From: Tetracentron sinense
Taxonomy: Eukaryota > Streptophyta > Magnoliopsida > Trochodendrales > Trochodendraceae
Length of the DNA: 64,000 nt
Direction of reading: 5' to 3'
Assembly (NCBI GenBank): GCA_015143295.1
Contig: CM026573.1
Span: forward strand, 4,499,950-4,563,949
A program made the position numbers and the translations under genes. Positions 2,885 through 44,306 of this stretch are shown piece by piece; positions within the stretch are counted from its first letter, which is position 1; the number at the start of each line of letters is the position of its first letter. The notes under the pieces are model-generated. The model was not told where the DNA came from. It searched no databases and worked only from the letters and a program-made list of their open reading frames with translations.

Positions 2885-3233
2885 AACTTGAGAGAATCTC
2901 TCGAGTTGGAACTCCTAGAGGTCACCACGTGTCTCCTTTGACACCCCTTAACCATGGGTAAGGTTCACAACCCCTAAGGTTCACCCACCCATCCTTGGTT
3001 TTTTTTTTATATATATTAATTATTATTTTTTAAATTAAAAAAACTGTTTTTAAAGTTTTTTTAATATTAAAAAAAAGTTTTTAATTAAAAAAAGAATTCA
3101 TATTTAAAAAAAATAAAAAACGAAGGATGGATGGGTGAACCTTAAGGGTGGGTGAACCTTACCCATGGTTAAGGGGTGCCAAAGGAGACACGTGGTGGCC
3201 TCTAGGGGTTCCAACTCAAGAGGATCCTGAGCC
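2885..3233. mobile_element. Palindromic MULE-type MITE, copy 1 (in Helitron L)
   Basis: It has long inverted arms (ACACGTGGTGGCCTCTAG against AGAGGTCACCACGTGTCTCC) around an AT-rich centre, and its right end is GGATCCTGAGCC. The right junction equals the left junction of copy 2 at 11908 in reverse. The element was therefore already in the Helitron before it was copied. The left flank is rearranged. Confidence 0.75.
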
Positions 3234-11907: not shown

Positions 11908-12245
11908 GGCTCAGGATCCTCTCGAGTTCAACTCGAGAGTCTCTCGAGTTGGAACCCCTAGAGGTCACCATGTGTCTCCTTTGACAACCCCTTAACCATG
12001 GGTAAGGTTCACCCACCCCTAGGGTTAACCCATCCATCCTTGTTTTTTTTTTTTTTTTAATATTAATTCTTTTTTTTAATATTAAAAAACTCTAAAAACA
12101 GTTTTTTTAATTTAAAAATAATAATTAATATATAAAAAAAAAATCAAGGATGGGTGGGTGAACCCTAGGAGTGGGTGAACCTTACCCATGGTTAAGGGGT
12201 GTCAAAGGAGACACGTGGCGACCTCTAGGAGTTCCAACTGGAGAT
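11908..12245. mobile_element. Palindromic MULE-type MITE, copy 2
   Basis: It starts GGCTCAGGATCCTCTCGAG and has long inverted arms. The right terminus is shortened. A perfect 9-bp target duplication, CAAAATCTT, flanks it (11899-11907 and 12246-12254), as expected for Mutator-like elements. Confidence 0.85.
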
Positions 12246-13276
12246 CAAAATCTTTTATTAACATTCTTTAATTCCAAGCACGTCCTAAGCTACTGTTCTT
12301 TTAAAGAACAAATTCCCCCCCCCCCCAAAAAAAACCGACTTCTACTCTCTTCTACCACACTTCTGTTGCTTCATCCACCGCCCCACCGAACACTTCTTCT
12401 CTGAAGCTGACCATGTGTCCACCCGAAATACATTGGTCATCGTATATTTGCTTAGCAAATACATATATTTCTAAGCTTTGGTGACGTTAACCAATATCTC
12501 ATAATAACAAACTTATATATTTGCTTCAGCCACTGCCTCACCAAAGCTTCCCACTACGCATATCAACTCGATCTGAGTCGCTCTCCATGAACGGCAGTGT
12601 CGATCCATCAAGCCTCCAAATATATGTCAATATATACCATCGTGTTTTGAGAACAAACACACATATACAACATCTACCATCGTGTTCTGAGAACAAACAC
12701 ACATATATCTAATTAGTAGTCGCTCTACACAATTTTTTTTACCATTATGGATTTTAGTGTTTCGACGATCCAATCGCAGAATATGATTCTTGAAGGTTAG
12801 GGTTCTATTGATTTCCTTTATTAAAATTTTTTTTTTTTTTTAATTTCTAACTTTCTCGTGTTGTTCTCTTCTATATAGTGTTGATGAACGCCTATAATCT
12901 GACCTATTCGGATTTCGAAAACCACTTTGCACCTCCCTAAAAAAAGTTCTGACACCATCGGCAAACCCACCTAATATAGAAGCTAGCAGATCTAGCGAGA
13001 TCATTTGCTCCCTTAACATATTCAAAAGCAATTCCCATCAATTTCTATTAGGCTACAACAATGCACCTTGCAATGTTTCTTCCAGAAAGTGCTCTAGTGT
13101 TTTAGTTTCCTCCTTTGGCCTTGCAATACTTGAATCTCCACCACTTCCATCTACACCATTCTCATGCTGGAAAACCACTGTTCTATTACGAAAAATAGAT
13201 GGGCAATTCATTCAACCTCATCAAACTGTGGATTTATGAGCCTACTATTCGCTTCAATTTTCTCTTGTAGAGACTG

Positions 13277-15172
13277 TGTAGAACCCCGAATCTTCGATTC
13301 ACTAAGTAGTGAATAATGTTCAAGTGTGGTCTTATACACTTGAGGGTTTTATGCTAATGGAAGTGTTTGGATTTATGGCGTACATGATTTAATAGGTCTG
13401 CGTGTCCTTAAGGAGTGTGTTTAAAGCATTAAAGGTGTTGGAAATGGAATTGGAGAAGATCCAAGTAGTAAAAATAAGGTTTTGCAGCAAAACAGGGGTC
13501 ACCGATCGCTTGGTGATAACCACCGATCGATCGGTCAAACACCGATCGCTCGGCATCACCGATCGACCGGTCTTAAACCGATTGCCCGGTAGCTATCGGC
13601 TGGTTAACTAATTTGTATGGGAAAAAATTCTAGAGAGGATGTTTTCAACCGATCGCTCGGTTGAAACCACCGATCACTCGGTCAGTCACCGATCGCTCGG
13701 TCTGTACCACCGATCAATTGGTCATACGCAGATTTCTTCATTAAAGGTTTTTAAGTCTTTAGCCACTACCCATTTGCTTATATAAGGCTGGGTTCGTGCC
13801 TTAGGGATTCATAAACCCTTTGTGCATTATTTTGAGAGGGTTTTGAGAGGAAGAAGAAGGAGGAAGCTAGGGTTACTCAAAGCTTGAAGGGAGATCAAGT
13901 TCCTTCCCTCCTTTTGGTATTTCTCAACAAAGAACTAAAGGGTTTCAAGTGTTCCAAGCTTTTGGAATCAAAATCAATGATTTTACCAAGGTAGATACAC
14001 TCTACTACTAATCTTGTGATAAACACTAGTTACTAAAAGATGTTCTTCTCATTCTATACTATATATCTCTTGATTGTTATGGTGTGAAAGGTTATTTTTA
14101 TACTTGGATGTAAGCTATCACTATTATGCACTCTATGTGTTTGTGTAAATGCCTCTAAGGATTTTTGGGTGTTTAAATGTTTTATTCTCTCATATGTTCG
14201 CCTATCTCGCATGAACCGAGGTTTTTCCTTGGATTTCTCAAAGTTACGAAAAAGGTTTTAAACAATGACTTATATGAATGATTCTAAACAACTCTATGAT
14301 ATCTCTAAGATCGGTTCACAAGCTCAAAAGGATCATGATATACTCACAAAAACTCTATGATAATGTCTAAGATCGTCTCACAAGCTCAAAATGATCATAA
14401 ATGAAATTGCTCTAAGATCTCTATGGTTATACTCTATGGTTATGCTCTACGGTATTGTTCTATGTCTCTAAGGATCATAATTGACTCTAAGGAACTCCAT
14501 AAACTCTATGAACTCTAAGAACTCACAATGCTATGATTATCACTTGACTCACATGGTTTTAGTTTCGGATTTCATCACATGTGTTATTTTACGGTTTCCA
14601 CACTTTGACATGTTTTAAGGATTTCATACTCCATGACTCGCATGCTCTATATTATTATTGTTTTATTGTTAGTAGTTTGTATACACTAAGTATTCCACAC
14701 TCAGCCGATATTTTTTATCATCGGCAGGTGCTCGGGTCTCATTCAACTTATGTGGTACGGAGCCTTGGGTAGAGGAAGAGTACTTCGACCCAGAGCCTTC
14801 TATAGACCACTATCAGGATGACGGATCATTAGATAGGCGTCATGATTTCGACTTTTGTTGATCGACTTAGAAAGATACGGTGTTTTGTTAAGTGAGAGTG
14901 GGACTTGTCCACTCCACATTTTTTGGATACATACAGTTGTATTTTGTTAGTTCAAACTTGGACCAAATAATAGGAGTATTCAGTTATGTTTTTAGCTTCC
15001 GCTATGTTAGTTATATTTTGCTTCCGCTGTGCTTTGTAAATCGTTTCCGCTGTATATGTTTGTGTACTCTGACAGGTTTCTATGCATGCTTTATGTATCA
15101 TATTGAAAGTATAATACGGCGGTCACGAGTCAAAGTATCCCTAACTCATAGGACGTATTTTGGTTCACGATA
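13277..15172 (+). mobile_element. Solo LTR 1 (1.9 kb), inserted in Helitron R
   Basis: It begins TGTAGAACCCCGAATC and ends TTTTGGTTCACGATA. The 5-bp duplication is GACTG/GACTA (13272-13276, 15173-15177). The empty site is readable in Helitron L near 1660. It holds about ten copies of a 14-bp palindrome of type ACCGATCGCTCGGT (13500-13723), a TATA box (TTATATAAGG, 13778), and an array of degenerate ATCGGTTCACAAGCTC units (about 14270-14520). No internal retrotransposon region is present, so this is the product of LTR-LTR recombination. The lineage is probably Ty3/gypsy, but without coding sequence this is inference. Confidence 0.85.
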
Positions 15173-15531
15173 GACTAGTACTTGCTAACTTGTTTAGTTG
15201 TTTATCTAGATAAGATATTAACAAGAGGAAACCATTTATATGAGGTTGCTTGTGATCCTCAATCCTTGCACGCGTCTTATGACAATTGTTTTGCATTCCT
15301 ATCAATCTATGAAGCATGAGAACTTGCTGCTTCAGCCTCTTGTTCGGCTAATATCACCATCAATTGAGAATAATCATAGAAATTACCTATTTATTATTTT
15401 ATTTAATAAATAAGAATAACCCTGCACCTGCCTTGCACGTGCCGGGTCAACTAGTTATCAAAAAAGAGGAGAGTTTGGAAATATTTTTAAATTGTGAGAT
15501 TATGCTTTAAACAAGGAGTCAAATCTTCTAC

Positions 15532-15842
15532 AAATCCGGTTATCACCCCTAGAGGTCGCCACATGTCTCGTTTGACACCCCTGATCCGTGGATAAGATTC
15601 ACCCACCCCTAGGGTTCACCCACTCATTCTTGGTAAATATTAATTCTTTTTGAAAATTAAAAAACTATTTTTAGAGTTTTTTTAATATTAAAAATATTTT
15701 TTTAATTTTAAAAAAAGAATTAATATTTTTATAAAAATAGCCAAGGATGGGTTGGTGAACCCTAGGGGTAGGTGAACCTTACCCACGATTAATGGGTGTC
15801 AAAGGAGACACGTGGAGTCCTCTAGGGGTGATAACCGGATTT
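15532..15842. mobile_element. Palindromic MITE, copy 3 (variant termini)
   Basis: It has inverted ends AAATCCGGTTATCACCCC, and the inner arms CTAGAGGTCGCCACATGTCT are like those of the other copies. The ends lack the GGCTCAGGATCC tip. No clear target duplication was found. Confidence 0.7.
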
Positions 15843-16020
15843 ACCGTAGATGATTTGGCTCCTTATAAAAGAGGGATACATCCATGTAGTATCATCAACT
15901 AAGACTGATTCAAGTCTCACGCTTAGGTCATGGATAAAACTGATGTGGGACCCATGTAAGGGCTAGATTGGACCTCAACCTAGGCAAGTTGGGCGGCTGT
16001 AAGGGCTAGATTTGACCTCA

Positions 16021-16266
16021 GGCCTCGGATTGTTTCTGGCGAAGCCAAAAGAGCTTGTCTCGGGCAACCATAGAATAGGGGACAAGTGGTGGAAAAGTCA
16101 AAATCATGGGCCCATAATTTTGACTTCTCCCCACTTGATACTTCTTCCCAAGTCAAAATCATGGGGAGGAAATGAAATGACTTCTCCATTTTTTTAATGC
16201 CACATGTCCCATATTCTATGGTTGCTCGAGAGCCCTTTCTGGCTTCGCTAGAGACAATCTGAAGCC
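16021..16266. mobile_element. MITE with GGCGAAGCC-rich terminal repeats, copy A
   Basis: It begins GGCCTCGGATTGTTTCTGGC and ends GAGACAATCTGAAGCC. The inner AAGTCAAAATCATGGG arms are palindromic. It is the same family as 20644-20934. Host sequence (TAAGGGCTAGATTGGACCTC) is repeated on both sides, so the site is rearranged. Confidence 0.65.
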
Positions 16267-16326
16267 TTTTAGGACCCATGTAAGGGCTAGATTGGACCTC
16301 AACCTAGGCAAGTGGGTCGGCTGGAG

Positions 16327-16497
16327 GAGTTCGGATGGGCAACAACACTTGTTGTTGCGCTCTTGCCCCTTGTGTCTGAAAAAATAAGGGCCCCACTCAT
16401 TGTTGATGTGGGGGCCACCCTTTATAGAATACGACTCATTTTTTCAGATATAAGGGGGCAACAGTGCAACAGCTAGCGTTGTTGCTCATCCGAACTC
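16327..16497. mobile_element. 171-bp MITE (TIR GAGTTCGGATGGGCAACAAC)
   Basis: The inverted ends are GAGTTCGGATG and CATCCGAACTC. The 9-bp duplication is CGGCTGGAG/CGGCCGGAG (8 of 9). The uninterrupted site is present in the paralogue at about 46061 (CGGCTGGAATG), which confirms the insertion. Confidence 0.8.
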
Positions 16498-16560
16498 CGG
16501 CCGGAGTGTATACATTGTCGAAGGGGCGGGAGAGTCTCAGTCCGTGTTCAACACCTACTT

Positions 16561-17898
16561 TACTTTTTCTTTTGGGTTTTTTTGCAAAAACCCCCTATCT
16601 CTTTAGTTATTTGTGACTACTCCCTTTCCTTTTGTGATTATATATTTTACCCCTACTAAATTTTAAATCATTTGCAAATCCACCCTTCCATCCATAAAGT
16701 TATTAACGGATGTTAAAATTTTGATGAAAGGATCTTTTTAACCTTATTTCAATGAGAAATGTAAAAACTTTTCACAAGTGCTTGGAACCCATTAACTGTG
16801 GTAAAATTCACTCACCCTTAGGATTCCTTTATCTAACCATGGTTTTTAGAGAAAGAAAAATATTAACCTTTGGTTGATTATGCTTAACACAATTAAAGGG
16901 GGCTCTACAAGTTGCCACGTGTTCTTTTTAATACCCACTATTTGTGGTTACGATCCACTAACCCCTAGAGTTCATCCATCTAATATTGGATTTTAGAAAA
17001 AAAATATTAAAAAAATATTAACCTTAGGATGATTGTGCTTAACTATAGCTATTTACAAATAGCTGAAAATAGGATTGTTTTTTTTTTGGTACAAAAAAAC
17101 CCAATATTTTTGTTTTCAGGTTGTGTACCTCGTTCGTGAGAGGGTTGCTGCCAATATGGTCTCTTCGTCCACATACAAAAGCACACCCCAGTCCCCATAG
17201 TTGGCGACAAACTATCATCACAAAAATAAATTGGGGTATATAGTATAGACACGTAGACCCCCTTATAACTGTGGTTAAACATAATCAACTAAAGGTTAAC
17301 ATTTTGTTTAGATTTTTTTCTAAAATCCAAGGTTAGATAGATGAACCCTAGGGATGAGTGAATGTTAACCACAGTTAGTGAGTGTTAAAAGGGACACATG
17401 GCAGCTTGTAAATCCCTCTTTTAACTGTGGTTAAGTATGATCAACCTAAGGTTAATATTTTTCCTTCTCTAAAAACCAAGGTTAGATGGATGAATCCTAG
17501 GGTGAGTGAATCTTAACCACATTTAGTGGGTTCCAAGTACTTGTAAATTTTTTTTACAAATCTCATTGAAATAATGAAAAAAGGTTAAAAAGGTCATTTT
17601 ATCAAAATTTTAACATCCGTTAACTACTTTATGGATGAAAGGGTGGATTTGCAAATGATTTAAAAGTTAGTAGGGTAAAATACAAAATCACAAAAAGGAA
17701 GGAGGAATATACAAATAACTGAAAAGATAGGGGGTTTTTCACCAAATTTTTTTTTTCTTTTTTGGATATATCCCACGTGTTGCACGGCGAATACCCCCAC
17801 CCCATACAACCAATATTAAGGGGAGCTCAAGAATTGACCTCGAGACCTCTGAGTTTACGATTCGTCCTTTGACCATTGGGCTAAGCCCTCGGGGGTTA
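16561..17898 (-). mobile_element. tRNA-derived SINE with a MULE nested in its tail, copy 1
   Basis: The 16-bp direct repeat TGTTCAACACCTACTT (16545-16560 and 17899-17914) flanks the block. On the minus strand, 17898 to 17757 has a tRNA-like A box (GGCTTAGCCCAATGGTCA) and B box (GAGGTCAATTCTTGAGC), and the T-rich side on + is the tail. A MULE-like element interrupts the tail at about 16573-17745. The intact paralogue is at 47334-47494. Confidence 0.7.
16573..17745. mobile_element. Long-TIR MULE-like element (1.17 kb)
   Basis: It is bounded by long inverted arms (GCAAAAACCCCCTATCTC at left, AAAAGATAGGGGGTTTTTC at right) that extend about 200 bp inward. The centre consists of units also found at 33730-34440 (TTAACTGTGGTTAAGTATG and so on). 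No transposase is seen. The paralogue at 47340 is uninterrupted. Confidence 0.65.
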
Positions 17899-18002
17899 TG
17901 TTCAACACCTACTTGACTAGCACTCAAAAGGAGGCAGTTGGAGTGTGTAGATAGGCATTGAATAAGAGTTGGGTGAACCTATTTCCAATCTATGCATGAT
18001 TC

Positions 18003-18131
18003 TCTCCCGTTGTAACTGGAGTCGAGGGAATTCGGTTACACCATTGATGCTGCTACGTGTCCCTTTCAACACCACTTAACTGGTAAAGATTCAACCACCC
18101 CTAGGGTTCACCCACCTATCCTTTTGTTTTT
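18003..18131. mobile_element. Truncated MITE, partner of 47593-47935
   Basis: It begins TCTCCCGTTGTAACTGGAG and shares the CACGTGTCCC arm with the full copy. It stops abruptly after GTTTTTAG, where the rest of the element and about 1.1 kb of host sequence are missing. Confidence 0.6.
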
Positions 18132-18238
18132 AGTCGATCTCCTTCTCCTTGTTGGCCAACCTCATGGATTTTTCCCTTCTTTCTTGGTGCATGTGGATTG
18201 GAGGATTTAGTTGGGTGCTCTGGATACCCTTGTCACTA

Positions 18239-18990
18239 GGGCTGTCAATCTGGTCCTTTGATGAGGGGGTTTGGTCCAACCCGGCCCTTCAAAGCCCGCA
18301 AAATAGAGGGCTTTGTAAGGCCCTAGGTCCGAGATGGGCCTAATTTTGAAAGACCCTCTTATTTGGGGGTAGGGTTTGGTAAGTACTCGGCCCGACTCTC
18401 CATTATATATGTATATATATATATATATAGAATAACTTAATACTTATAGTAACATAAGAGGTTAAGTCTCATTTTGTGTAAGTGTAACATACTAATATTA
18501 TAATGTAGTATCTTTCTATAATCTTTCTAATACGATAACTTGTAACGTTTTTTCTTTTTATTTTTATGAAAAAATCTAATGCTAAGACTTTGTGTACGTA
18601 TGTGTAACAAACTAATAGTGTTGTCTCTTTTTATCATCTTTTATTGTTATTATTTGTTAGTGGTAACCTTTTAAACAATTATATATATAACAATATTAAT
18701 ACTAACAATTTAATGGTAATAATGGGGGGTGCACTAATACTAACAATCTACTGGTAGTAATACTCCGTCGTGTTGATCTTTAAATTGCATTGTTAGTCCC
18801 AAGTCCAAATAAGGGAGAAAAATTGTACATCAGATTAGCAATCAAAGTAAAAAAAAAATTGCTAAATCATAATTTTTTTTTGTTATTTCGACCTGGCCTG
18901 ACACTAGCCCAGCCCTGGTCCTGCCCCTTGAGGGTAGGACTTGGGCCTTGTAAGCCGGCCCTTCAAAGGCAGCATAATTTTTTGTTTTGT
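18239..18990. mobile_element. hAT-like non-autonomous element (degenerate)
   Basis: It starts TAGGGCTGTCAATCTGG, a typical plant hAT end. The right side near 18895-18970 holds a degenerate inverse (GGCCTGACACTAGCCC, CCGGCCCTTCAAAGGC). AT-rich filler lies between. The right limit is uncertain. Confidence 0.45.
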
Positions 18991-20643
18991 TATTTCACCA
19001 TGATTTACTTGTAAGCACCTAATTTTTACACCCTCCCTTTTTTAAGCCATGATTAAGAAATTTAACCATGGTTATCCCCTAGTCTAACCCTAATCCTAGC
19101 CCTAGATCAAACCCTAGTCTAACCCCAGGTCAAGCCCTAGTCTAACCCTAAGCCTAAACTTAGCCCTAACCCTAGGTCCAACCCTAAGTCTAACCCTAGG
19201 TCTAGTCTAAAACCCAAGTCCAAAGCTAGCCCTAGCCCGACCCTAAGCTACAGCCCAAGCTCACAACCCTAGCTCATAAGCTTCAAGGGCCCAAGCCCAT
19301 GATAACAAATCACATCCAAGAACCAAACCCATTGACCCATGCCTAATGCCCATGGACCAAAACCTAAAACCCACTTGCCCCCTTTCATGTTTACCCGAGT
19401 CCAAGGGTTGTTGCTCAGCCTGCATCTTGCGCAAATGAGGAAAGGGAGCAGGTCTGCCCCACTGCTTCCCTTGCTGCCCGTCCAGGTTTGACCCTCCAAT
19501 CCCTTTCCTTTGTCTCGCCCACCTCCCTCTTTCCTCATGGCTCCGTCTCTAAAACCCCAGCTGCCCTTCACGTTTTAGGGGGATCCAAAAAATTCTGCAA
19601 GAGTGAAAATTCAAAAAAAAAAAAAAAAAAGGCAGAGGGAGAGTACCCCCAGAATTCTGTCAAAATTTGAAGTGAGTAATCTTCCCCTCCACCAAGGAAG
19701 GAAGTGTGTCTGGAGGCCTTTGATCCTAAGAGTAACTAGAACCAGACCCTCCTGAGGTTGTACAGTCCCTTGAAGCTTGTTTGAGTAGATATCCAGGGTA
19801 GGCTCTCTTCCACTCTATCTCTCGATTTCCAAATCAAACCAGCCCCTATCTTGCTCCAGCACCAAACACGGACACCCGTAGCCATAGGCGACACCTTCTC
19901 GCACCAACTGCCTGCAACAGCCCACACTGCCACACACCTCTCTTTTGGTAGCATCTTCACACAGGAGAAAGTGCTCCTCTCTCTCATTTTTGCCCCCTGT
20001 TCAGTCCATCAACACAGCCCAAAACGGCCACCTCTTCAGTCCATATTTTCCACCCAAAACAGCCCCGTGCATGCCCAGGTCAACAGCTATCGTTGCCCCT
20101 ACACCACTAGTGCATACTATCAGTCTTCGTCCAGCAACAGCCCACTTCTCTCACAACCAGTGGCGTCTTCCCTCTCTCCACTCGCGGCCACGGCTCCTCC
20201 ACTCACGGTTTTGTAGCTGAGACCTTGCCCACTTTTATCTTGTAAATACAGATTTGTTAGATTAGGCATTGTATGGTTGCCGTATTCAGTTCTAAGGTTT
20301 AGTTAACACTTAGCTTTAGTTTAGTTTACAATTTTGTTACACCCATCTAAGTTTTAGGTGTGATTTAGATTATTGTTAGTGAAATTAGAAAATCTGATTT
20401 GTTGGTTTATTATTAGTTTAGTTATTTGGTTTAAAACTCTAACTTAGTTGATCTTTAGGCTTAAAGCTTGGTTTTTAGATTAGCTCTAATTAAAGCCTTT
20501 CATTTTGGTTAGTCCTTAGGTTAAACTAAAACTGTTTTTGTTTACTTTGAAGTTTAGTTCTAACTTAGATTAAACCATTCATTTGGAAAGATTTTTTTTT
20601 AGATTAGTCAAGATAGAGCCCTTTTCTTCGGTGAGCTTTTAGA

Positions 20644-20934
20644 GGCCTGGGATTGTCTCTGGCGAAGCCAGAAAGGGCTTATCTCGGGTTCCATAGAATA
20701 GGTGACAAGTGGTGGAAAAGTCAAAATCATGGGGCCCACGATTTTGACTTCTCCACCCTTAATAAGACATGTGGCGATAAGTGTGTGAGAATAAAGGGGA
20801 GAGATATCATATGGGGAGAAGTCAAAAAAATGGGGAGAAAATGAAATGACTTCTCCCCATTTTTTGGCCAACTGTCGCACAATGTATGGAACCCCGAGAG
20901 GGGTTTCTGGCTTCGCCAGAGACAAGCCAAAGCC
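20644..20934. mobile_element. MULE-type MITE, copy B (291 bp)
   Basis: It starts GGCCTGGGATTGTCTCTGGC and ends GAGACAAGCCAAAGCCG. The exact 9-bp target duplication GCTTTTAGA (20635-20643 and 20935-20943) marks it as Mutator-like. It is nested in the long LTR. Confidence 0.85.
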
Positions 20935-21402
20935 GCTTTTAGAATATGTTTCTTAGGCTGTAGACTAAATCTGTTTCTAGTTACTTTCTAGGTTAATTTT
21001 GACTTAGGTTAATACTATTTTGTAGTCTTTAAGTAATCCAACTTTAATGTAGTTGTTAGGCTAGTCCCTAAATTAGTCTTAAACTAGTCTTAGGCTATTT
21101 TAAAATTCTGTTTTAGGTTAGTTTTAGATTAATCTTAACCCGTGCTAAATTTCCTTTTTTATTCTTTCTTTTGGTTAGTTAACATAGAATAAGTACACAT
21201 TTGGTTAACTCTGTTTGTAGTTAGTTTCTAGGTCAGGTTCGATTAAGTCCTAGCTTCAAATCTTTCTCGGTTAATTTTCTAGGTTAGTTAGTAAACCCCA
21301 TGCTCCACAACGAGCTTAAACTACTATTCAGAAAATCAAAAAAAAAAAAAAAGATAAACATTTAAAATACAAAAACAAAAAAAAATCAAAAGACAAAAAA
21401 TC

Positions 21403-24298
21403 TATAAAACCCCGGTCTTTGATGTTCATGCACGGTGAATAGTGCTATGAATAGTGTCAGTTCATGAGTTGTGAAGGTTAAAAGCCTTCTTGTATTATTG
21501 TGGTTGTAGAATAAGCTATAATGAGGATTTTTACCTTGATTTTAATTGAGTAGGAGTATGTGTAGCTTAGAAACACTAAGTATAAGAATACTCTAAGTGT
21601 TTTAAAGTCAATGATATGAAATACCCTAAGTGTTATAGTGTTAGGACCACATGGATCTTAATGTTCATAGAGATTTTGTTTTCCATGGATGTGTTAAAAA
21701 TTGTGTTAGGGTCCTAAGGACCTTTATGAATAGCTTAAGGGTGTTAAAACAAGAGTGTGAAACACTCTAAGTGATCAAACTATGATCAAAGTTGAAAAGA
21801 AGAAGGATGTCTTCACATACCCTCAACTTTAGGGAATCATAGTTTTGTCACTGCTGATCAGAATCAATTGATTCTTAAATTTTTAGAAAGATATCGAAAC
21901 CCTCTTCGAAGTTCATGTTTCACACTTTTTCAGATTTTGAGTTGAGCTTAGGTCAAACGTTGGATTTTCAAAAACTAGTCTGCTGAAATTCTGGTCTGCT
22001 ACAATTGTTCAAGGACCAATCAGCTTTAGGACCACTTTGGACCATGAATAAAGAAGAATTAGGAGTTGTATAAAACAATAAAGTTGATCATCTTTGAATG
22101 ACGAGTCCAACGCAAGTTGAATCATCAAAATCCGATGAGTGAGTTAAAAATTATGGTCGAAATACCAAACGGAAAAAATATGGACAGCTCACTAGAGGTT
22201 TGGACGATCGATCATCCCAAGCCAGACGTTCGATCACCCTGAACCCAGAATCTGGGTAGCTCACTGGAGTTCTGGACGATTGATCGCCCAGCCTGACGAT
22301 CGATCGTTAGCACACAACTCTGTTTTTTTAAAGATGCATAAATCAAGGTTTTTAACCCCTTGGGCTATAAATGGAGTGTATTTTTGTGGGTCTTAGGGTC
22401 TCACTAAATCAAAGGGAGATTGTGGGTGGAAAAGAGAGAAAAGTAGGGTTTCCAAATGAGGTTTTTGTTAGAGATCAAGTGGAGCTCAAATCCTTCCTTT
22501 CAAGGCTTGGATCTTCTCCTTCAAGCAAGGATCTTCCCTCTCAAGGTTGGATCTTCTCCATCAAGCTTGGATTTCGTGCTCAAGGGTTTCTTCAAACTAG
22601 GATTGATCTTTAGGAGGTAAGTACACCCTTCTTGCCAACTTAGTGATAACCTAGATCCAAAACCTAAGTTTTATATGGTATGTATGCTTAGATTTGGACA
22701 AAAATATTTTCTATTATTAAATCAATCATGTTTACCTAAATCGCATAGATAAATTAATATTGAGATGAATGGTGTGGGATGAATAGATTGGTTGAAGCTT
22801 TAATTGGATGTCATGGAGAATGGGGATGGTTATTGTATGATGAAAAATGGGGGAAAGACAATGTACACATAAAACATTGTTAATATGTGAGCCATTCTTA
22901 GACATGATCCTTATGAGCATTCATAACCAATCTTAGACTTAAGGTGTTTGATGAAAGGTATGACTATGAGAACATGAGTTAATACTTATTGAAATGTTGA
23001 ATGTCATGTGTTCGATAAAATGCATATGTGGGATTTAAACCTATGAATATGAAAGCATGATTTAAGGTTTTTCCCCAAATTATCAAATTGTTAATATGCC
23101 TCTATAAGTTATATTTAAGTTCTCTCAAATCTATGGAATGATATATGTTACTCTTCTAAGCGCCTTCATGCCAATATGATGCTCACAAGCACCACAAGCA
23201 TTATATGTATTGTATGAGCAATGTTTCTCATAAGCAAAATGTTGGAAAATGCATAAGAAAAGTGTTAAGCAAAACCTCATAAGGAAAAATAGTGAACTTA
23301 TAAGATTTGAAAGGGCCAAACTTTGGATTGGCAAAGTCTAAGATCGAGTACCATATCTCTATGGATCATAAGTCTAAGATTGGTTATGAATGCTCATAAG
23401 GATCATGTCTAAGAATGGCTCACAAGTCTCTAAGGATCACAAGTCTCGCAAGACTCTCGCACGAACTCACAAGAACTCATAAGGCTCACAAGTGGTGCAT
23501 AAGAATTCATAAGAACTCATAAGAACGCATAAGGCTCATAAGAATCATGTCTAAATGGTTCACAAGCTCTAAAGATCAAGTCTAAGGTCGTTTCACAAAT
23601 CTCTACGGATCATAAGTCTAAGATCGGTTACCAAGCTCACAAGACTCATAAGAACTCACAAGCTCAAAGAATTCATAAGATTTATAAGAATTCATAAGGC
23701 ATGTTCTGTTTTCTACGAAAGCTCTTAAGATAGAGTTTTAAAAGTTATGTGCTTATTAAGTTAAGTTTTGAATTAATTGCTATGTTCGGCTCAATGCATA
23801 AATTGTAAACTATTATCTTCAATGCTCACATGATATTGGTTATTGTATAACAATGTTAGCTAGTAGCTTGTACACATTGAGTATTTCATGCTCAGCTATA
23901 CATTTTATGTCGGTAGGTCCCTTTAACAATTGCAACCCAGAGCCATGAGTTGAAGAGGCATACATGAAAGAAAGGGAGCCACCTATCCTGTTACAGCCAC
24001 AGGAGGATAGAGATTTAAATGTGTGGCTATATCTAGACTATTGCTGAGTGGAGTGATAGTGAGATTACATTTTGTCTTTTGATAGGTGAGTATGTCCACC
24101 TTTACTTTTGGTTAGGTATGTATAAACTTAGGAATACAGATCATATGTGTTAAAGAAAATTTTAGTTTATGCTTCCGCTATGATTATCGTTTCTATTATA
24201 TTATGCCTTAGATATTTTACAGGATAGTTTGGTATCGGATATAGCACATCACGAGCCAATGTATCCCTAACTCCTAGGAGATATTTTGGGTCCCAACA
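21403..24298 (+). mobile_element. Solo LTR 2 (2.9 kb)
   Basis: It begins TATAAAACCCCGG, a transition-mutated form of TGTAGAACCCCG, and ends ATATTTTGGGTCCCAACA. The exact 5-bp duplication is AAATC (21398-21402, 24299-24303). The same landmarks as in solo LTR 1 occur in order: palindromes (22203-22312), TATA box (GCTATAAATGG, 22364), a pyrimidine/purine-rich leader, a degenerate CACAAGTCTAAGATCGG array (about 23330-23690), and the terminal CACGAGCCAATGTATCCC block. No internal region is present. Confidence 0.85.
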
Positions 24299-24374
24299 AA
24301 ATCTAACCACTCCGGTGCACACCCTCTAATCACAGTTAACAATCTTAACCACGATTAACTTAACCCTAGGCTTT

Positions 24375-24545
24375 CGAGCCCAATCTGTGGCCTCCAGGCC
24401 CATTCCCTAGCCTTCAGGCTCATTCCTTGGCCTCCGGGCCCATACCCTAGCCTCCGAGCTCATACCCTAGGCCTCCGGGCCCAATCCCTAGCCTCTAGGC
24501 CCAAACCTAGTCTTTAGGGCCCACCCTTACCTCCGGGCTTAAACC
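24375..24545 (+). repeat. Minisatellite of CCCTAGCCTCCGGGCCCAT-like units
   Basis: About eight imperfect units of 20-23 bp, within the 3' part of the long LTR. Not coding. Confidence 0.75.
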
Positions 24546-24964
24546 CTAGCCACTCTGGTGCACTTGACCTCCTCAATCAATTAACCCTAGCCCCCGGACT
24601 AACCCTATGTCACCACGGTGCACACACACACACTCCCCTTAACCCCGGCATGGGTTCATGTGTCAGAACTAGTCTGATCTCACCCCAGTGACTACGTAGG
24701 CAACCCAACCCGGGTTCGACCCTAGTTTAAGATTTTTCATTTCTTGAATTAGCATCACTCTAAATACTTAGGCATTTCATTAATTTCGATTTAACTTGGC
24801 TTAAACCTAGAGAGTAAGTAATCATCTTAGACAGAGGTCCCGAGGTGCCTAACACCTTCCCCGATACTTAATCGAACCACTTACCCTAACTCTAATCGAG
24901 ACCATCGACCTTGATCTAAACACGAGACCTATCCCTTAAAATAAATAGGTGGCGACTCTCAGTC

Positions 24965-26174
24965 AAACCAGTGGATGAATTTCATGCTCACTTTACTAAT
25001 CGCACAACCTTCTTATGGGTGAAGATCAAACCTTATATGTGCAAGAGAATTCCCTCTTGACTTCCACGATCTTCTTCTGGGTGAAGATCCAATCTTATAA
25101 TGAAGCTCCTCACTTAAAGGATAAGAATCCACCAATTCTTGATTTCAAGCACACTTTGTAAAAAGTTATTTTACAATCATAAAATTCTCCTTACACGAGC
25201 TAGATGATCTCTTTAAAGCTCTCTAAAATCTCTCAAAGATTGGAGTTGAATAGCTCAATATATGGGATTTGATATTTCTAGGGTTTACTCAATAGATTTG
25301 GAAATATAAGTTTGTGAGTAATTGATTGAATGATCCAGAATGATAAGAGTTATTATTTAGTTCATAAAACATCACATTTTAAAGCCCAATAAGTTTTATG
25401 GCCGTTGCAGTAGCATTGGTTACAAAAAGAATCGTTGAAAACTAATTATTACAGAGTAAAAACACTGTTATGCACCTTCTGGTCGACTGTCACCAGTCGA
25501 CTAGATGAAGGCAATGGCTAAATAATACTTCTGGGCATTGATCTGGTCGACTAGATGGATGATTCGGTTGACTGGATGTATAATTTTCACTGAAAATCAT
25601 TACTTTAACCAACCTAGATGATGAGAATGATTTGCTAAATCACATGGTTTAACTTTATCAAGATTTTAATCATTCTTTATGATGTCATAGGACCTTAGAA
25701 TGGTAATCAAATATGATCTAAGGTACCTATGGTCGATCTAGGCATTAAAGTTTTCAAACAACTAAACTTTGAGGATTTTTTACATAAGTCCTAGACACAC
25801 TCAAAAGATAAAAATAAAACTTTAAACCTTCTTCAGAGTCTTCATTCTTCTTCAACTTGATCTTGACTTGATTTGTCTTATTCGACTTCATGATCAATCT
25901 TCTTCTTCTTTATGATATGAGTTCGAATTGAATATGATCTTTAACATCTTCAATATGATCTAACTTGATCTAATGACTTGCTTTGACTTGATAATGAATC
26001 TTCTTTATGAATGGAATCATTTTCATGCTTTTGCCTTAAATGGTTTGTTAATGCTCTTGGTAGACTGATTTTCACATAAATTCAATTGAGACACTAGCTA
26101 TGAACACATTATAATTTATTGTGTTATTATCAAAATCATTAAGGAAACCTATGGTAGAAACCTTTAGGCTAACA
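24965..26174 (-). mobile_element. LTR-like sequence, minus orientation, unresolved ends
   Basis: On the minus strand it would start TGTTAGCCTAAAGGTTTC (26174 leftwards). It contains several copies of the palindromic word CTGGTCGACTAG or variants (25480-25575). The other end is not clear and no duplication could be confirmed. Confidence 0.4.
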
Positions 26175-26189
26175 CGTGGCTTGGGCTCA

Positions 26190-27523
26190 ATTTGAACTTC
26201 AATGTTTAAGCTCGATCTTGGATTGAACAAGCTTGAATGAGCTTGAGCTTTGTTTAAGTTTGAACCCCATTCAAGTCAAAGTGAAACTCGAATTGTCTCA
26301 AGCTTGATTCACAGAATTATCTTATTTAAATTTATATTTATTTTAATAAAAATGATTATTAATAAATCATAATACAAAAATCACTTAAAATTAATACAAT
26401 CATATATGAAAATAAGATTTGGGGGTGATATATCCTTCTATGTAAAGAGTATAGAGTTAGATTAGAGTTTCTCCTTTTAACTTCTTAAGATTTTTTTGTG
26501 ATTATTATCTTAAATTTATTTATTAAAATTAATAACTCTTATAATCTATAATAAATTAAAAATATTAGTTATTATTAATATAAAAAACATTACTAAAAAA
26601 TTTTATATATATATATATATATATTAAAAGTGAGAGTAGCTGGTGTCAACCAACTTCTCTACTTCCACAAATAATGCCCTCTATGAAAATCAAAATGTCT
26701 TCTCAACTCCCTCTGGCTGGGCCTCCACCGATCTCACAATCAACCTATGCGTGGATGCCGACAAGCTTTTTCCACCCGAAAAATAGATCAATCTCCTTCT
26801 CTATCAACGTTTCCTTCAACTTTCGGCCACTCCTCGCCTCGCCGAGCTTCAACACCAGGTAGTTCCCCATTTGAATCTCTTTCTTAGGGTTGGAGTTTCA
26901 AATTCCGGGAGAAGCACAGCAAATCCCCGGGGGTAAGGTTTTCTTTCTCTCTTTGTCTATCCTCTGTTTTTCTGTTTTGTTGGTTTCTTGTACTCCACTG
27001 GTTCCTGCGTTGTGCTGGTGATTTCTTTGGACAAGAGTAAGTTTTTATGTTGTAGTTGAACCTATCAATCATAGCATCATTCCATGCAAAATAAGGCTCT
27101 TCATACTCAACTTGCTGTGTTTGGTATTCTCTTGCTTGAGTTTTTTTTTGCTTGCTAAGTGTTGAAGTAATGACAAGTTCCCTGTGAAAAGACTAAACCA
27201 TCCAAGTTTAATGAAGTAGTGATGAGTTAAAGAATTGATGAAATAAAAAGTTTTCCTATAAATAATGGTTAGCTCACTCAACCTCTTTTCTTACATTAAC
27301 AACTGAATTGCACTCTTTGTAAATGTATAAAATAAAAATTCACGGAGGCCTGAGTACACAAATAACCAAGGTCATACTTTGGCCTAGATTAGTATTGTGA
27401 AAATACTTACATGTGGCTTCAATCAGGGGTTGTGCTGGTGATTTCTTTGGTTAGCATCATTCCATGAAAATAACTAATACGATGACTGTGATTTCTATAT
27501 GACCTACACACACACACACACAC

Positions 27524-27581
<58 letters not shown>

Positions 27582-28413
27582 TTTCATGTTTTCTTTGCTA
27601 AGGTTTTTGTGTTTGATAACCACATGTTCATATGTATTTTTTTCTCTTAACCCTTCCACCATTCCACATACTTTCACTGCCTTCCTCTTATTTATCTTCT
27701 CTCACCCTTAGCTCGCCCCGATGCTTCTCACCCTTTGCTCCGGCTATTGCTTGCATCACTTACTCTCATCATTGCTCTTGCACCACTTTACCCTCCTTTT
27801 GCTTGCCCCCCAGCTCCCTCCCTTTACTCCGGTTACTGCTCATGATGCTTGCTTCCACCGCTGCTCGCACCGCTTACTCTCACCATTGCTCCTGTGGCTG
27901 CTTTTGCCGGTAAGTTCCATTTTCTTATTTGTGGGTTTGGAGATGAAATGAGTTCATTTTTCTCAGGGATTAGTCCTGAGTCTCCTGACCCAAAAGGTTG
28001 GGGACACCCCGAGTTCCAAAAAAAAAAAAACTTGCTGAAATCCACCAAGAAACCTTTCCACCCAACTTTGCCAAAAATCCTACATCATTGCTCTACCATG
28101 TGACACTACCTTCACAATGCCATCACAAACTCTAAACAACACTGGGAACAACCTTGCACCCTAGGGTCTTAGCAAGAGAAGTAAGCTAAATTTGTAAGTA
28201 AAATCCTTATCAGTAACAGACCACTAATAAGTGCTTCAGGTGCTCTTCTTCCCTCTTCATGATTATTACTGTGTTTTATAAATGAGAGCCTCCAACCACT
28301 GTTTCGGAGCAGCTAGGTGAATGCTTAAGAGATGAGCCAGGAAACTTTAGGATGCTTACAATGGAGTAATTTCTTGTAACCAAACCCTTTTTTTGCAACT
28401 CATATGGAATTTA
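26190..28413 (+). other. Interval with two exon-like stretches but no recognisable gene
   Basis: A degenerate AAGCTTGAATGAGCTTGAGC repeat lies at 26200-26330. Around 26669-26855 one frame reads as a plausible coding exon (peptide VDADKLFPPEK, one stop, then LLLYQRFLQLSATPRLAEL) ending at a GT. At 27650-27910 a C/T-rich stretch ends at the donor-like CCGGTAAGTTCC. A dinucleotide tract (CA)n(TA)n is at 27505-27572. I cannot assign a function; this may be a decayed gene later split by solo LTR 3. Confidence 0.3.
27505..27572. repeat. Compound microsatellite (AC)n(AT)n
   Basis: An uninterrupted AC tract passes through GAT into a long AT tract. Confidence 0.95.
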
Positions 28414-28418
28414 TATAT

Positions 28419-30864
28419 TGTAACGACCCCAAAATCCCACAAGGCTAAAATAGGACTTTGGGATCGCCACATTACTTAAACCTGCTTAAAACCATGCATA
28501 CAAGGCTACTACACGAGTCTCCAAAAATGAGAGTAATAAAATTTCGGTATATAATCCATAACCCACCTGCTCAAGTCTACAGTCAACATATACAACTCAA
28601 GATAAAATAACAAGTCTGATACACAACTATAAAGAGGTATACTGAGCAACATCAACTCAAGGTCTAATACAAAACTCTCTCTCAACTAAACAAGCATCAA
28701 CTAAGAGGTGTAGCCACCCCAGCCTCCGATTCCATCCTCGAAAGGCTCACCTTCTCCTCCCTCCTCAATGTAAGTCTCCTCAACCCACGGCTCCGCCGGG
28801 TTCTCCTGCTCTAAACCTGCCAAGACAAAGTCCGGCTGAGTACAAAGGTACTCAGTGTATATAAAATCCAACCAACAATAATAATATACCTGCACTTAGT
28901 CAAAAATATATCCAATAGCATAATAACATAATCAGAGTGTGGAAGAACATGTGCGCATATACATCATATCATCACCTTGACTCGTGTACTTGTGAGAACC
29001 TTAGACTTAGAAAACCATATACTTATGAGCTGCTTATGCTTATGAGACCACGTGCTTGTGAGATGCTTATGCTTATGCTTATGCACTTATTCAGATCATA
29101 CAAGGATGAGACATGCCGTTCTTGGCGGATACGGACCATGCCTTAGAAATCATGTGGTTGACATGCCGTTCTTGGAGGATACGGACCATGTCTAAGAATC
29201 AGGTTGACATGCCGTTCTTGGAGGATACGGACCATGTCATACTTATGCTTATTCAGAATGTCATACGTATTCCATGCTCATGCTTGTGGTCCACATGTGT
29301 GACTTGTGAGACTCTTATCTTAACATACACGTGCATATGTGCTTAAGTGTCGAAATTAACATTCGAGTTGGTAATTGCTTAGATTCCGATCTCCCACCAT
29401 GGAAACTCTACTATACTGTCCCATACCAAATAGTTAGAGAATTCCCGGTTTGAGAGATGTTCCTCTAACTTCTTACCTTCCCGACTATCAATTTCCATGC
29501 ATATAATTAGACATACTTAACAAACCACTCACATATACATATCTTATCATAATTCATATCGCAATTCATAATCAATTTACCACCATTTCATAAGAGTATA
29601 ATAGCATTTATCCTTTCAAGCATTTTCACAAACACCTTGTGTACGCATAATATGAATCCATTTCCCTTCTATATTTTTAAGCATTCATTAAACCATAATT
29701 CATCCATACAATCAATTCACTATTCACATCCACATATTAATCTCATCCTCCATATATTCTATCCACATCCAATCCACATTTCCATCCACATTTCCATCAA
29801 TAATTAGCTTACTTCATAGAAAATTTGGGGAAAATGCATTTAATCTCTATTCTATCATTTCTATCAAATTAATATTCACAAAACATTAAAATAGAGTTGA
29901 TTAGGATAGTATATCGACCTTAGGAATCCTTCCCTTGGATTCAAAACGCTCCCGAGACGATTTGGAGAAGCTTCCCAAACTTTTCTTGCAATCTCCTATC
30001 AATCTCCTCCTTCTCCAAGAAAACCCTCTCTCAAAACCCTAGGGTTTCTCCCCCTTTTTGCCAAATTAGGTTAGAAATAGGTGAAGTATTTTAATATTTC
30101 GAGTAGGACCCCCTATTTATAGCCTCAAGGTCTGAGAACAAAAAGATCAAAACGCCCATACTAAAATTCTGTAAAAATCACGAAAGACCGAGCGATCGGT
30201 GGTTATGACCGAGCGATCGGTTGCCTACCGATTGATCGGTGTTTATGACCGGGCGATCGGTCAAAAACACACTCTCTGGAAAATTTCCTCATACAAAATT
30301 ATGGACCAGTCGATAGATACCGATCGATCGGTTTTGGACCGATCGATCCCTACTTCTGACCGAGCGATCGGTTTCCTACAGATTTTTTTACCCGCTTTAC
30401 TGTTTCGGCCATAACTTTTGACTCGTTCGTCGGATTTCGACGATTCAACTTGCGTTGGATTCGTCTTTTGAAAATGAACATTTCTGACGTTTTAGAACTT
30501 CCAATTTCCACTTAATTAATAAACTAAATTGTCTCCAAAGTTGACTGATCTGTAATTCCATTAGACAAAACTCACTATTGACTTGACTTAAACTCAAAAT
30601 GAGGAAAAACACTAAAAATAAACCTCGAAGAGGGTTCCAATACCTTTCTAATGGTTCAATAATCACACAATTCCAGTAAACGGTGCTACAACTAGAGCTT
30701 CCTAAAGTTTAGGGTGTGTTATTGCATCCATCCGTTACAAGTTGATTAAGCCTAGTTTACATCACAATAATTAGATATAAATACACACACCTTAACACCT
30801 TATAAAGACTAAAATACTCTTAATGCAATGCAATAAAAACATGAAAAAGATTCGGGTCTCTACA
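28419..30864 (-). mobile_element. Solo LTR 3 (2.4 kb), minus orientation
   Basis: On the minus strand it begins TGTAGAGACCCGAATC and ends TTTTGGGGTCGTTACA. The exact 5-bp duplication is TATAT (28414-28418, 30865-30869). Palindromes of type ACCGAGCGATCGGT occur at 30186-30380, and the reversed TATA box (TATTTATAGCC) at 30113. The leader and AAGGT-GATA landmark match solo LTR 1. There is a three-copy tandem repeat at 29113-29240. No internal region is present. Confidence 0.87.
29113..29240 (+). repeat. Three tandem copies of a 45-50 bp unit
   Basis: The unit GACATGCCGTTCTTGGAGGA, then TACGGACCATG, is repeated three times inside solo LTR 3. It translates by chance into a repetitive peptide. Confidence 0.85.
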
Positions 30865-38570: not shown

Positions 38571-39570
38571 GGGAAATAATCACCTCCTCGGTCCGTGGTG
38601 CGAGGATAGCGTCTCAGCTCCACTTTTCTTGCCACTTGTCCATCTATTAATTCTCTTTAACTGTGATCGAAGTTCACCAACCCTTAGGGTTCACTCCTCT
38701 ACCCCTGGTTTTAGAAAAATAACATAAAAAATTTTAGGCACAGGATTCTCTCGAGTTGGAACCCCCAGAGGTCACCACGTGTCTCCTTTGACACCCCTTA
38801 ACCATGGATAAGGTTCACCCACCCCTAGGGTTCACCCACCCATCTTTGGTTTTTTTTTAATATATTAATTATTATTTTTTAAATTAAAAAAACTGTTTTT
38901 AGAGTTTTTTTAATATTAAAAAAAGTTTTTAATTTAAAAAAAGAAATAATATTTTTTTAAAAAAACCAAGGATGGATGGGTGAACCCTAGGGGTGGGTGA
39001 ACCTTACCCATGGTTAAGGGGTGTCAAAGGAGACACGTGGCGACCTCTAGGGGTTCCAACTCGTGAGATTCTCTCGAGTTCAACTCGAGAGGATCCTGAG
39101 CCAAATTTTTAACCCTGGATTAAAAAAAAAAACAACCCGAATTCATGACAGATGGAAAGGGCAGCTTTGTGTGAACGAGGAGCAATATAGTTCACTCCTC
39201 ACCCGTGGAGTGAACTATTGCTCATAGCATAATCTTAAGAGCATGCGAAGCCTAGCCAGCATTTAGCTCGGGAGCAATAGTTTGCTCCACTAGCGAGGAG
39301 CGAACTCTTGCTTCTCGTTCAACTAAAATCCTAATCCTTAGTGATGGGTTATAAACGGTTAAGATTAGGGAATATATTTGAGAGTATAAATGGGAGTACC
39401 TATAGACGGACTCTTTAAAAATTTTAACCCTTTTCTAAAAACTAAGAGTAGATGGGTGAACCCCAGGGGTGAATGATTCTTAACCAGAGTTAAAAGAGGA
39501 ACATGTGGCAAGTAAAACGGAGCCGAGATGCACCTCCTTGCGTCACCAACCGAGGAGGTGATTATTTTCC
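38571..39570. mobile_element. MITE-like element with GGAAATAATCACCTCCTCGG ends, containing a nested MITE
   Basis: The left end is GGGAAATAATCACCTCCTCGG and the right end is the inverse ACCGAGGAGGTGATTATTTTCC. MITE copy 4 is nested inside (38737-39102), as is a further inverted unit with GAGGAGCGAACTCTTGC words. A half-copy of the same end follows at 39627-39760 and another at about 36150. Confidence 0.65.
38737..39102. mobile_element. Palindromic MULE-type MITE, copy 4
   Basis: The ends are GGCACAGGATTCTCTCGAG and CTCGAGAGGATCCTGAGCC. Flanks AAAATTTTA and AAATTTTTA agree at 8 of 9 positions. The internal arms are nearly perfect inverted repeats with conserved CACGTGTCTCC. Confidence 0.85.
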
Positions 39571-41830: not shown

Positions 41831-41915
41831 CATTGTAAATACTAGTTTTTTCTTTAAAATAAAAATACTAGTATAAGATGCAAGAGGTTGGTTCTTTATG
41901 ATACATTTGGAGGCA

Positions 41916-42856
41916 ATGGATCTAGCACTTCCCTTTTCGCTAATGCAAGAATGGTTGCAAGAGCAACAAGGGACACTGTTCCACCCCTTCTCACTCTCTC
42001 TCCTTTTCTTCTTCTCCCTTCTCTTCCTTCTTAATCTCAGTAGATCTTGGAGACTCAACCTGCCACCTTCTCCTTCCAAACTCCCCATAATCGGAAATCT
42101 CCACCAACTAGGCACGCTTCCCCATCGCTCCCTCCATGCCCTCTCTAAGAAACACGGCCCTCTAATGCTCTTACACTTGGGCCAAGCCCCAACTCTCGTG
42201 GTTTCTTCAGCAGATATGGCTACAGAAATCATGAAAACTCATGATATTGTCTTTGCTAATAGACCCATTACTACTGCTGCCAAGGCGATACTTTACGGAT
42301 GCAGAGACGTGGGGTTTGCTCCCTATGGAGAGTACTGGAGGCAGATGCGTAAGATATGCGTTCTTCAGCTCTTGAGTGTCAAGAGGGTGCAATCCCTTAA
42401 GTATGTAAGGGGAGAAGAAGTTGCTGTTATGATCAAGAAGATTTCGCGTTCTTGTTCGTCGGGAGCTACAATAAATCTAAGCGAGATACTGATGAGTGTC
42501 GCTAACAACATAGTCTATAGATCAGTTATTGGTAGGAAGTATGAGGAAGAAGATGGTAAGAACAAATTTGGAGAAATATCCAAGGAGGTAATGGTGCTCT
42601 TCGGAACTTTTAGTTTTGGGGACTTCTTCCCATCTTTGGGATGGATGGACGTCCTCACTGGCTTTTCTGGTAAGCTTAATAAGGTTTTCCGAGCACTAGA
42701 TGCCTTCTTTGATCAAGTGATTGAAGAACATCTCAATTCCAAAAGAGATAATCAAGATGATGACAAAAAGGACTTTGTAGATATCTTGCTCCATGTTCAG
42801 AAGGATGACATGCTCGACATCAAACTCACCCGAGATGATATCAAAGCAATCATATT

Positions 42857-42904
<48 letters not shown>

Positions 42905-43570
42905 AATGAATAATTAATATTTAGAGGCTAAAGCTCTCATCTTTCTTAATCACAGGACCTGTTTGTTGGAGGAACTGATTCGACATCAACAACCCTTGAA
43001 TGGACGATGGCGGAGCTGATCAAGAATCCGAAAATAATGAAGAAAGCGCAAGAAGAGGTGAGAAGAGTGGTAGGAAAGAAATCAGAAGTAGATGAGAATG
43101 ATGTTAATCAAATGCACTACTTAAAATCCGTGGTGAAGGAGTCTCTAAGATTACATGCTCCTCTTCCGTTGTTGGTTCCGCGAGAGTCATATGCCAATAC
43201 TAAAGTGGATGATTACAATATCCCTCCAAATACAAGAGTTTACATCAATGCATGGGCAATTCAAAGGGATCCCAAATTGTGGGAGAGTCCAGAAGAGTTT
43301 CTACCAGAGAGATTTGGTGACAACCCAATTGATTTTAAGGGCCAAGACTTTAAGTTTTTGACATTTGGGGCCGGAAGAAGGGGTTGTCCTGGAATCTCGT
43401 TTGGCGTCGCAGCCGTTGAGTTAGTCCTGGCAAACCTCTTATACAGGTTTAATTGGGAGTTACCTGGTGGTGCAATCAAGGAGGACTTAGAAATGACTGA
43501 AACTTTTGGACTTACTGTCTGTAAGAAAAACCCTCTTTATGTAGTAGCTCTTCCTTCGTCCAAGAAATAA
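41916..43570 (+). CDS. Cytochrome P450, CYP71 clade (CYP71A-like), two exons
   Basis: A heme-thiolate monooxygenase that would use O2 and electrons from NADPH-P450 reductase on a small lipophilic specialised metabolite at the ER; the substrate cannot be told. CDS is join 41916-42857, 42956-43570 (518 aa). The first ATG in frame is 41898 (524 aa). I prefer 41916 because its context GGCAATGGA is better and MDLALPF fits family N-termini. Order: hydrophobic anchor (aa about 20-40), hinge LPPSPSKLPIIGN, C-helix WRQMRK, I-helix GGTDSTS (about 319-325), ExxR as ESLR (376-379), PERF (431-434), and heme loop FGAGRRGCPG (451-460) with Cys458. All hallmark residues are present. The phase-0 intron sits where CYP71 genes have theirs. 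The gene looks intact and complete. It is flanked upstream by a tandem duplication and a MITE, and downstream by repeat copy 2. Confidence 0.95.
42858..42955 (+). other. P450 intron with a (CT)n(TA)n tract abutting the donor
   Basis: The 98-nt intron begins GTCTCTCTCT directly after codon TTG and ends AATCACAG. The CT tract starts at the donor and runs into a TA tract, filling about 45 of 98 nt. The exon junction IKAIIL/DLFVGGTD matches the family. Confidence 0.88.
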
Positions 43571-43946: not shown

Positions 43947-44306
43947 GGCTCAGGATCCTCTCGAGTTGGACCCCCTACAGGTCACCACGTGTCTCCTTTG
44001 ACACCCCTTAACCATGGGTAAGGTTCACCCACCCCTAGGGTTCACTAACCCATCCTCGGTTTTTTTTTATTAATTATTATTTTTTAAATTAAAAAAACTG
44101 TTTTTAGAGTTTTTTAATATTAAAAATATTTTTTTAATTTAAAAAATAATAATTAATAAAAAAAAAAAACCAAGGATGGGTTAGTGAACCCTAGGGGTGG
44201 GTGAACCTTACCCATGGTTAAGGGGTGTCAAAAGAGACACGTGGCGACCTGTAGGGGGTCCAACTCGAGAGATTCTCTCGAGTTGAACTCGAGAGAATCC
44301 TGTGCC
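43947..44306. mobile_element. Palindromic MULE-type MITE, copy 5
   Basis: It starts GGCTCAGGATCCTCTCGAG and ends GAGAGAATCCTGTGCC. The exact 9-bp duplication TTTTTATTA lies at 43938-43946 and 44307-44315. The arms are almost perfectly palindromic, with CACGTG in each. Confidence 0.9.

Follow-up and report, generated by a model that had tools for sequence, protein, structure and literature searches.

The closest described counterparts of the sequences reported here are Sireviruses, 13 of which carry a palindromic repeated motif (RM) in 3-14 copies per 3' long terminal repeat (3'LTR), mostly in its upper half (Bousios et al., 2010, PMC2829016). According to the available part of that paper, RM clusters form CpG islands followed on average 37 bp later by the TATA box, the motif was deemed Sirevirus-specific and was missing from the classic Ty1/copia elements used for comparison, and a regulatory role was proposed with the binding factor left unnamed. 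In maize Sireviruses, the part of the LTR that is rich in palindromes has an excess of mapped small RNAs, as recounted in the available portions of PMC10760457 and PMC5311732. Here we analyse a 64,000-nucleotide stretch of the Tetracentron sinense genome (contig CM026573.1, positions 4,499,950 to 4,563,949; henceforth the window, to whose numbering all coordinates refer), in which three solo LTRs (LTR1, LTR2, and LTR3), old remnants of plant-type retrotransposons, have clusters of palindromes at a nearly fixed distance before the promoter. An initial annotation of this DNA had recognized these clusters and held that no described system fits them, but the Sirevirus RM boxes, as set out in the available text of PMC2829016, show the same anatomy.

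Results

The three main LTR blocks of the initial annotation proved to be real and larger than it had drawn them, each being a solo LTR flanked by a 5-bp target-site duplication (TSD):

LTR1: 13277-15172, plus strand, solo LTR of 1896 bp; TSD GACTG (13272-13276) and GACTA (15173-15177); begins TGTAGAACCC and terminates GGTTCACGATA
LTR2: 21403-24298, plus strand, solo LTR of 2896 bp; TSD AAATC at either flank; TA instead of TG at the start
LTR3: 30864-28419, minus strand, solo LTR of 2446 bp; TSD ATATA at either flank; begins TGTAGAGACC and terminates GGGTCGTTACA

All three qualify as solo LTRs by their TG..CA ends and 5-bp TSDs, the TG..CA pair being intact in LTR3 and one transition away in the TA end of LTR1 and in the TA start of LTR2. 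The two TSD copies of LTR1 differ by a single mismatch (one transition), and the repeat that hosts LTR1 has an opposite-strand copy without the insertion, with the junction near 1653-1658. Kinship among the three LTRs is patchy by BLAST. The strongest matches are those of LTR1 and LTR3 where the arrays lie (73% over 215 columns), of LTR2 and LTR3 immediately ahead of the array (65% over 420 columns, the homology ending right before the arrays), and, out of several between LTR1 and LTR2, of the 3' ends (86% over 44 columns). A CCAACGCAAGTTGAATCRTCRAAATCCGA block upstream of the array is kept between LTR2 (22107, plus strand) and LTR3 (30458, minus strand). The opening 20 bases of this U3 block, common to LTR2 and LTR3, had no match in a collection of viral contigs, and 381 bases of LTR3 had none in a plasmid collection.

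Each LTR contains one array of palindromic units followed by a TATA box:

13501-13722, plus strand: LTR1 array, nine units of the ACCGATCGMTCGGT type and one degenerate unit at 13591
13779-13784, plus strand: TATA box of LTR1 (TATATAAGG), 56 bp past the last unit
22203-22308, plus strand: LTR2 array, four units of the GACGATCGATCGTC type in two unit pairs, starts 72 bp apart
22366-22371, plus strand: TATA box of LTR2 (CTATAAATGG), 57 bp past the last unit
30372-30187, minus strand: LTR3 array, seven units of the ACCGATCGMTCGGT type and one degenerate unit at 30318-30305
30116-30121, minus strand: TATA box of LTR3 (CTATAAATAGG), 65 bp past the last unit

A unit was counted if it had at most three mismatches from ACCGATCGATCGGT (LTR1 and LTR3) or from GACGATCGATCGTC (LTR2), and the TATA box was taken as the first TATAWA after the array, a word present at two, four, and three places in LTR1, LTR2, and LTR3, respectively. 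The counts of nine plus a degenerate unit, four, and seven plus a degenerate unit agree with the "about ten, four, and about seven" palindromes annotated initially, as do the measured gaps of 56, 57, and 65 bp with the 50-65 bp then given between the last palindrome and the TATA box; the LTRs with these gaps are 1896, 2896, and 2446 bp long. Inside the clusters, neighbouring canonical units are spaced 17-22 bp from start to start, while the degenerate unit of LTR3 follows at 14 bp, and every array is broken by one longer gap (71, 50, or 57 bp). The degenerate units of LTR1 and LTR3 stand at the matching place in both arrays.

In 300 dinucleotide shuffles per U3, the same word count had a mean of 0.007-0.04 and a maximum of 2, a test that is partly circular because the consensus was drawn from the arrays themselves. 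A word-free count of 14-mers with at least five G or C and at least six of seven dyad pairs is 6 in LTR1 and 6 in LTR3 and was reached by 0 of 300 shuffles for each. Across 20 units (degenerate ones excluded), the dyad is best in the central register, with a mean of 5.55 of 7 pairs versus at most 3.85 in registers shifted by 1-6, and wherever the dyad is perfect, the words of all three LTRs have ATCGAT in the middle. Outside the window, a two-unit pattern matched one stretch in viral contigs and six in genome contigs (bacterial or archaeal records), all presumed unrelated.

The arrays of LTR1 and LTR3 align unit by unit, with identity in 97 of 111 columns of the units versus 42 of 71 columns of the spacers (p = 3e-5). 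If the degenerate unit is omitted, 12 of the 98 unit columns differ and 86 are identical (p = 2e-5). CpG dinucleotides are concentrated in the arrays, with observed/expected ratios (o/e) of 1.51, 1.05, and 1.72 in LTR1, LTR2, and LTR3 versus 0.64, 0.35, and 0.67 elsewhere in the respective LTRs. Inclusion of the LTR3 degenerate unit places 51 of the 52 array CpGs inside units, and the remaining one lies in the degenerate unit of LTR1, such that all 52 are inside units once both degenerate units count. On our best reading, the arrays would be counterparts in kind of the Sirevirus RM boxes and would regulate the LTR promoter from upstream.

Several results weigh against this reading. The evidence base is small, comprising three LTRs of which two have one array in common. 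The word-free dyad count of LTR2 is 2, and its symmetry alone is not significant because 35 of 300 shuffles equal that count. Moreover, 10 of the 16 units of LTR1 and LTR3 bear an asymmetric C at position 9, which breaks one dyad pair and is oriented alike in both LTRs; this C makes up 10 of the 22 deviations in these units, another 6 being CpG transitions, and compensated half-site changes number 0 among the 22, at low power. Deviations amount to 3/96 in the left and 9/96 in the right half (p = 0.13, likewise of low power; pair 6/9 omitted and the degenerate LTR3 unit excluded). Finally, homologous units across LTR1 and LTR3 have a mean identity of 0.878 (seven pairs), which barely exceeds the 0.864 of non-homologous units, so that duplication or homogenization probably took part and could account for part of the unit conservation. 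For selection on the symmetric site, which the initial annotation had proposed, support is weak: the dyad-breaking C and the lack of compensated deviations speak against it, and the sole symmetric difference is that between the LTR2 word and the LTR1/LTR3 word at their outermost positions, and the arrays of these words may not be homologous.

The same observations invite the explanation that the arrays grew neutrally, as minisatellites in which one word that was palindromic by chance was duplicated in tandem and had no function. The recurrent C at position 9, the uncompensated changes, and the near-equal likeness of homologous and non-homologous units would all follow from such growth, as would the 17-22 bp spacing. 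Plain tandem growth would, however, affect units and spacers equally, whereas the spacers of LTR1 and LTR3 are far more diverged than their units, and a second word, that of LTR2, is found equally far from its TATA box. We consider purely neutral growth unlikely.

A role in RNA is another alternative, as an array in U3 is transcribed into the 3' end of the genomic RNA, where it could form hairpins or mediate pairing between genomes and so affect small-RNA production or packaging. When folded as RNA, the arrays compare favourably with dinucleotide shuffles, with z-scores of -3.79 for LTR1 (0/200 shuffles as good), -4.97 for LTR3 (0/200), and -2.90 for LTR2 (1/200), and the small-RNA excess at maize Sirevirus palindromes, in the available text of PMC10760457 and PMC5311732, points the same way. 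Yet palindromic repeats fold well by construction, so these z-scores cannot be taken as a sign of selection on the RNA, and a promoter function is the more natural explanation for a place directly ahead of the TATA box. This makes an RNA role quite improbable in our view.

The initial annotation had named both a dimeric-factor site and an insulator/enhancer array as possible roles. Position, CpG richness, and the conservation of units over spacers support a cis-regulatory array. For an insulator or boundary element there is only the clustering together with the ATCGAT-containing centre, a kind of word that resembles insect boundary motifs, but no feature of the sequence speaks to insulation, and we give this role very little credence.

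Two further blocks had been associated with the arrays:

52312-52325 and 52333-52346, no strand assigned: pair of ACCRATCGATCGGT-like words ("LTR4"); neither strand has a TATAWA at a distance of 50-65 bp
25478-25576, minus strand: separate block of four GTCGAC-like units with 4, 6, 5, and 3 of 7 dyad pairs; LTR ends not found

The two words of LTR4 exist, yet their inclusion among the arrays does not hold. The surroundings have no recognizable relation to LTR1-3 by BLAST and no common end or hairpin motif; the first following TATAWA on the plus strand is some 200 bp on (52545), and none follows the words on the minus strand within 51900-52312 (about 400 bp). The block annotated at 25480-25575 fits only in part: it does contain four GTCGAC-like units, but their dyad quality is mixed and the CATAAA that lies 77 bp beyond them is poor as a TATA box. 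This block may belong to a different LTR type.

Beyond the arrays, a short reading frame with EPWVEExY recurs in the same frame in the three LTRs:

14730-14858, plus strand: EPWVEExY frame in LTR1
23919-24044, plus strand: EPWVEExY frame in LTR2, with a stop replacing W
28814-28704, minus strand: EPWVEExY frame in LTR3

The frame follows a possible splice acceptor (CGGCAG/GT, CGGTAG/GT, and TGGCAG/GT in LTR1, LTR2, and LTR3, respectively) and is also open ahead of the AG, for 18, 39, and 27 codons. In the EPWVEE codons the third base varies in four of six while the residue is kept, which hints at a coding exon within the LTR; a Pfam scan that covered two of these three pieces gave no match. 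Possible splice donors are present at 13990 (plus strand, AAGGTAGATACAC), 22616 (plus strand, GAGGTAAGTACAC), and 29919 (minus strand, AAGGTCGATATAC), which is 210, 249, and 201 bp past the TATA box of LTR1, LTR2, and LTR3, and suggest that each LTR may contain a leader intron; only the donor of LTR2 is near consensus. Shortly before the possible acceptor lies an ACTRAGTA..CTCAGC hairpin-like motif (14685 and 23876, plus strand; 28856, minus strand), whose stem is perfect in LTR3.

We also looked in the window for signs of the superfamily. A Pfam scan of 10 of the longer open reading frames (ORFs), out of 115 of at least 70 residues, returned no retroelement domain: three matched (two cytochrome P450, one phosphatase-gelsolin) and seven had no match. 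A few patterns of reverse transcriptase and integrase found no match in the six frames of the window. The Sirevirus polypurine tract (PPT; AGGGGGAG, then AT/TG at the 3'LTR) has no adjacent counterpart in solo LTRs, and the nine matches to AGGGGGAGATTG in the window with at most two mismatches (0 exact; 4.98 expected, nine being reached by 7 of 100 shuffles) carry little weight for them. Matches to GGTATCAGAGC from the Sirevirus primer-binding site (TATCAGAGC, after the 5'LTR) number eight at the same threshold (0 exact, 8.56 expected). Neither word thus exceeds chance in the window, which for solo LTRs is of little weight.

Elsewhere in the window, the Pfam matches at 56101-58710 and 41877-43567 (plus strand) are to a dual-specificity phosphatase of the MPK1 type that has gelsolin domains, as well as to cytochrome P450 (two ORFs). 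Related self-complementary repeats of about 300-350 bp, resembling miniature inverted-repeat transposable elements with a long hairpin, lie at 2898-3222, 11942-12244, 15513-15864, 38744-39071, and 43958-44271.

Discussion

The arrays of LTR1-3 are relics, because no internal region remains. We infer that such an array probably stimulates the LTR promoter by way of a dyad-binding host factor. The palindromic units would be binding sites of a dimeric host transcription factor, binding would raise transcription from the LTR, and unit copies would be gained and lost through tandem duplication.

The superfamily of LTR1-3 is not established, as these are solo LTRs without internal regions. Their ends, of the form TGTAGARMCC..GGGTCGTTACA, look unlike Sirevirus ends and more like those of Ty3/gypsy elements, to which we take Retrosat2/RIRE8 of rice to belong; for solo LTRs, such ends are a weak clue. 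In Retrosat2/RIRE8, likewise, the LTRs are long and their TATA box is close to the 5' end, and the printed termini of the element (5'TGTCACACCC-GGGCGTGACA3', that is TGTCACACCC-GGGCGTGACA) resemble TGTAGAGACCC..GGGTCGTTACA, a likeness of printed ends only; the portion of the text examined, in contrast, describes no palindrome array (PMC3485330). In the literature searched by titles and the starts of abstracts, no palindrome array in a Ty3/gypsy LTR was found, and two papers that contain some of the exact words searched for are on unrelated subjects, judged by title.

The likeness to the Sirevirus RM boxes is close, as far as the available text of PMC2829016 describes them: both systems have multi-copy palindromic LTR words that are CpG-rich and clustered before the TATA box, and in both the word varies while the symmetry is kept. 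LTR1-3 have the repeated dyad words, the cluster before the TATA box, and the CpG richness (judged by o/e, with no formal island caller). The word of the Sirevirus Tnd-1, ACAATCGATTGT, has the ATCGAT centre in common with ACCGATCGATCGGT and GACGATCGATCGTC. By contrast, the CGG-CCG core present in 12 of the 13 Sireviruses (all but Tnd-1) is found in neither ACCGATCGMTCGGT nor GACGATCGATCGTC, the order being CCG..CGG in LTR1 and LTR3 and neither of the two in LTR2. LTR2 also has just four units, the lowest published 3'LTR counts being 3 and 4 (Sorghum and Citrus). The palindrome-rich cis region of maize Sireviruses (CACCGGACNNNGTCCGGTG) is likewise a highly variable palindrome cluster in the regulatory region of the LTR, with a word unlike those of LTR1-3 (PMC10760457 and PMC5311732, as far as available). 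The arrays of LTR1-3 are thus a variant of the published Sirevirus architecture that differs in core word and in LTR ends. We see about an even chance that RM-like arrays also arose in the LTRs of Ty3/gypsy elements, where different words surround a GATCGATC centre, such that unrelated plant retrotransposons converged on one promoter architecture and perhaps on one class of host factor. If Ty3/gypsy LTRs do carry the same architecture as Sireviruses, this would suggest that the solution is a general one among plant LTR promoters, and it would supply additional words for tracing the host factor left unnamed in the available text of PMC2829016.

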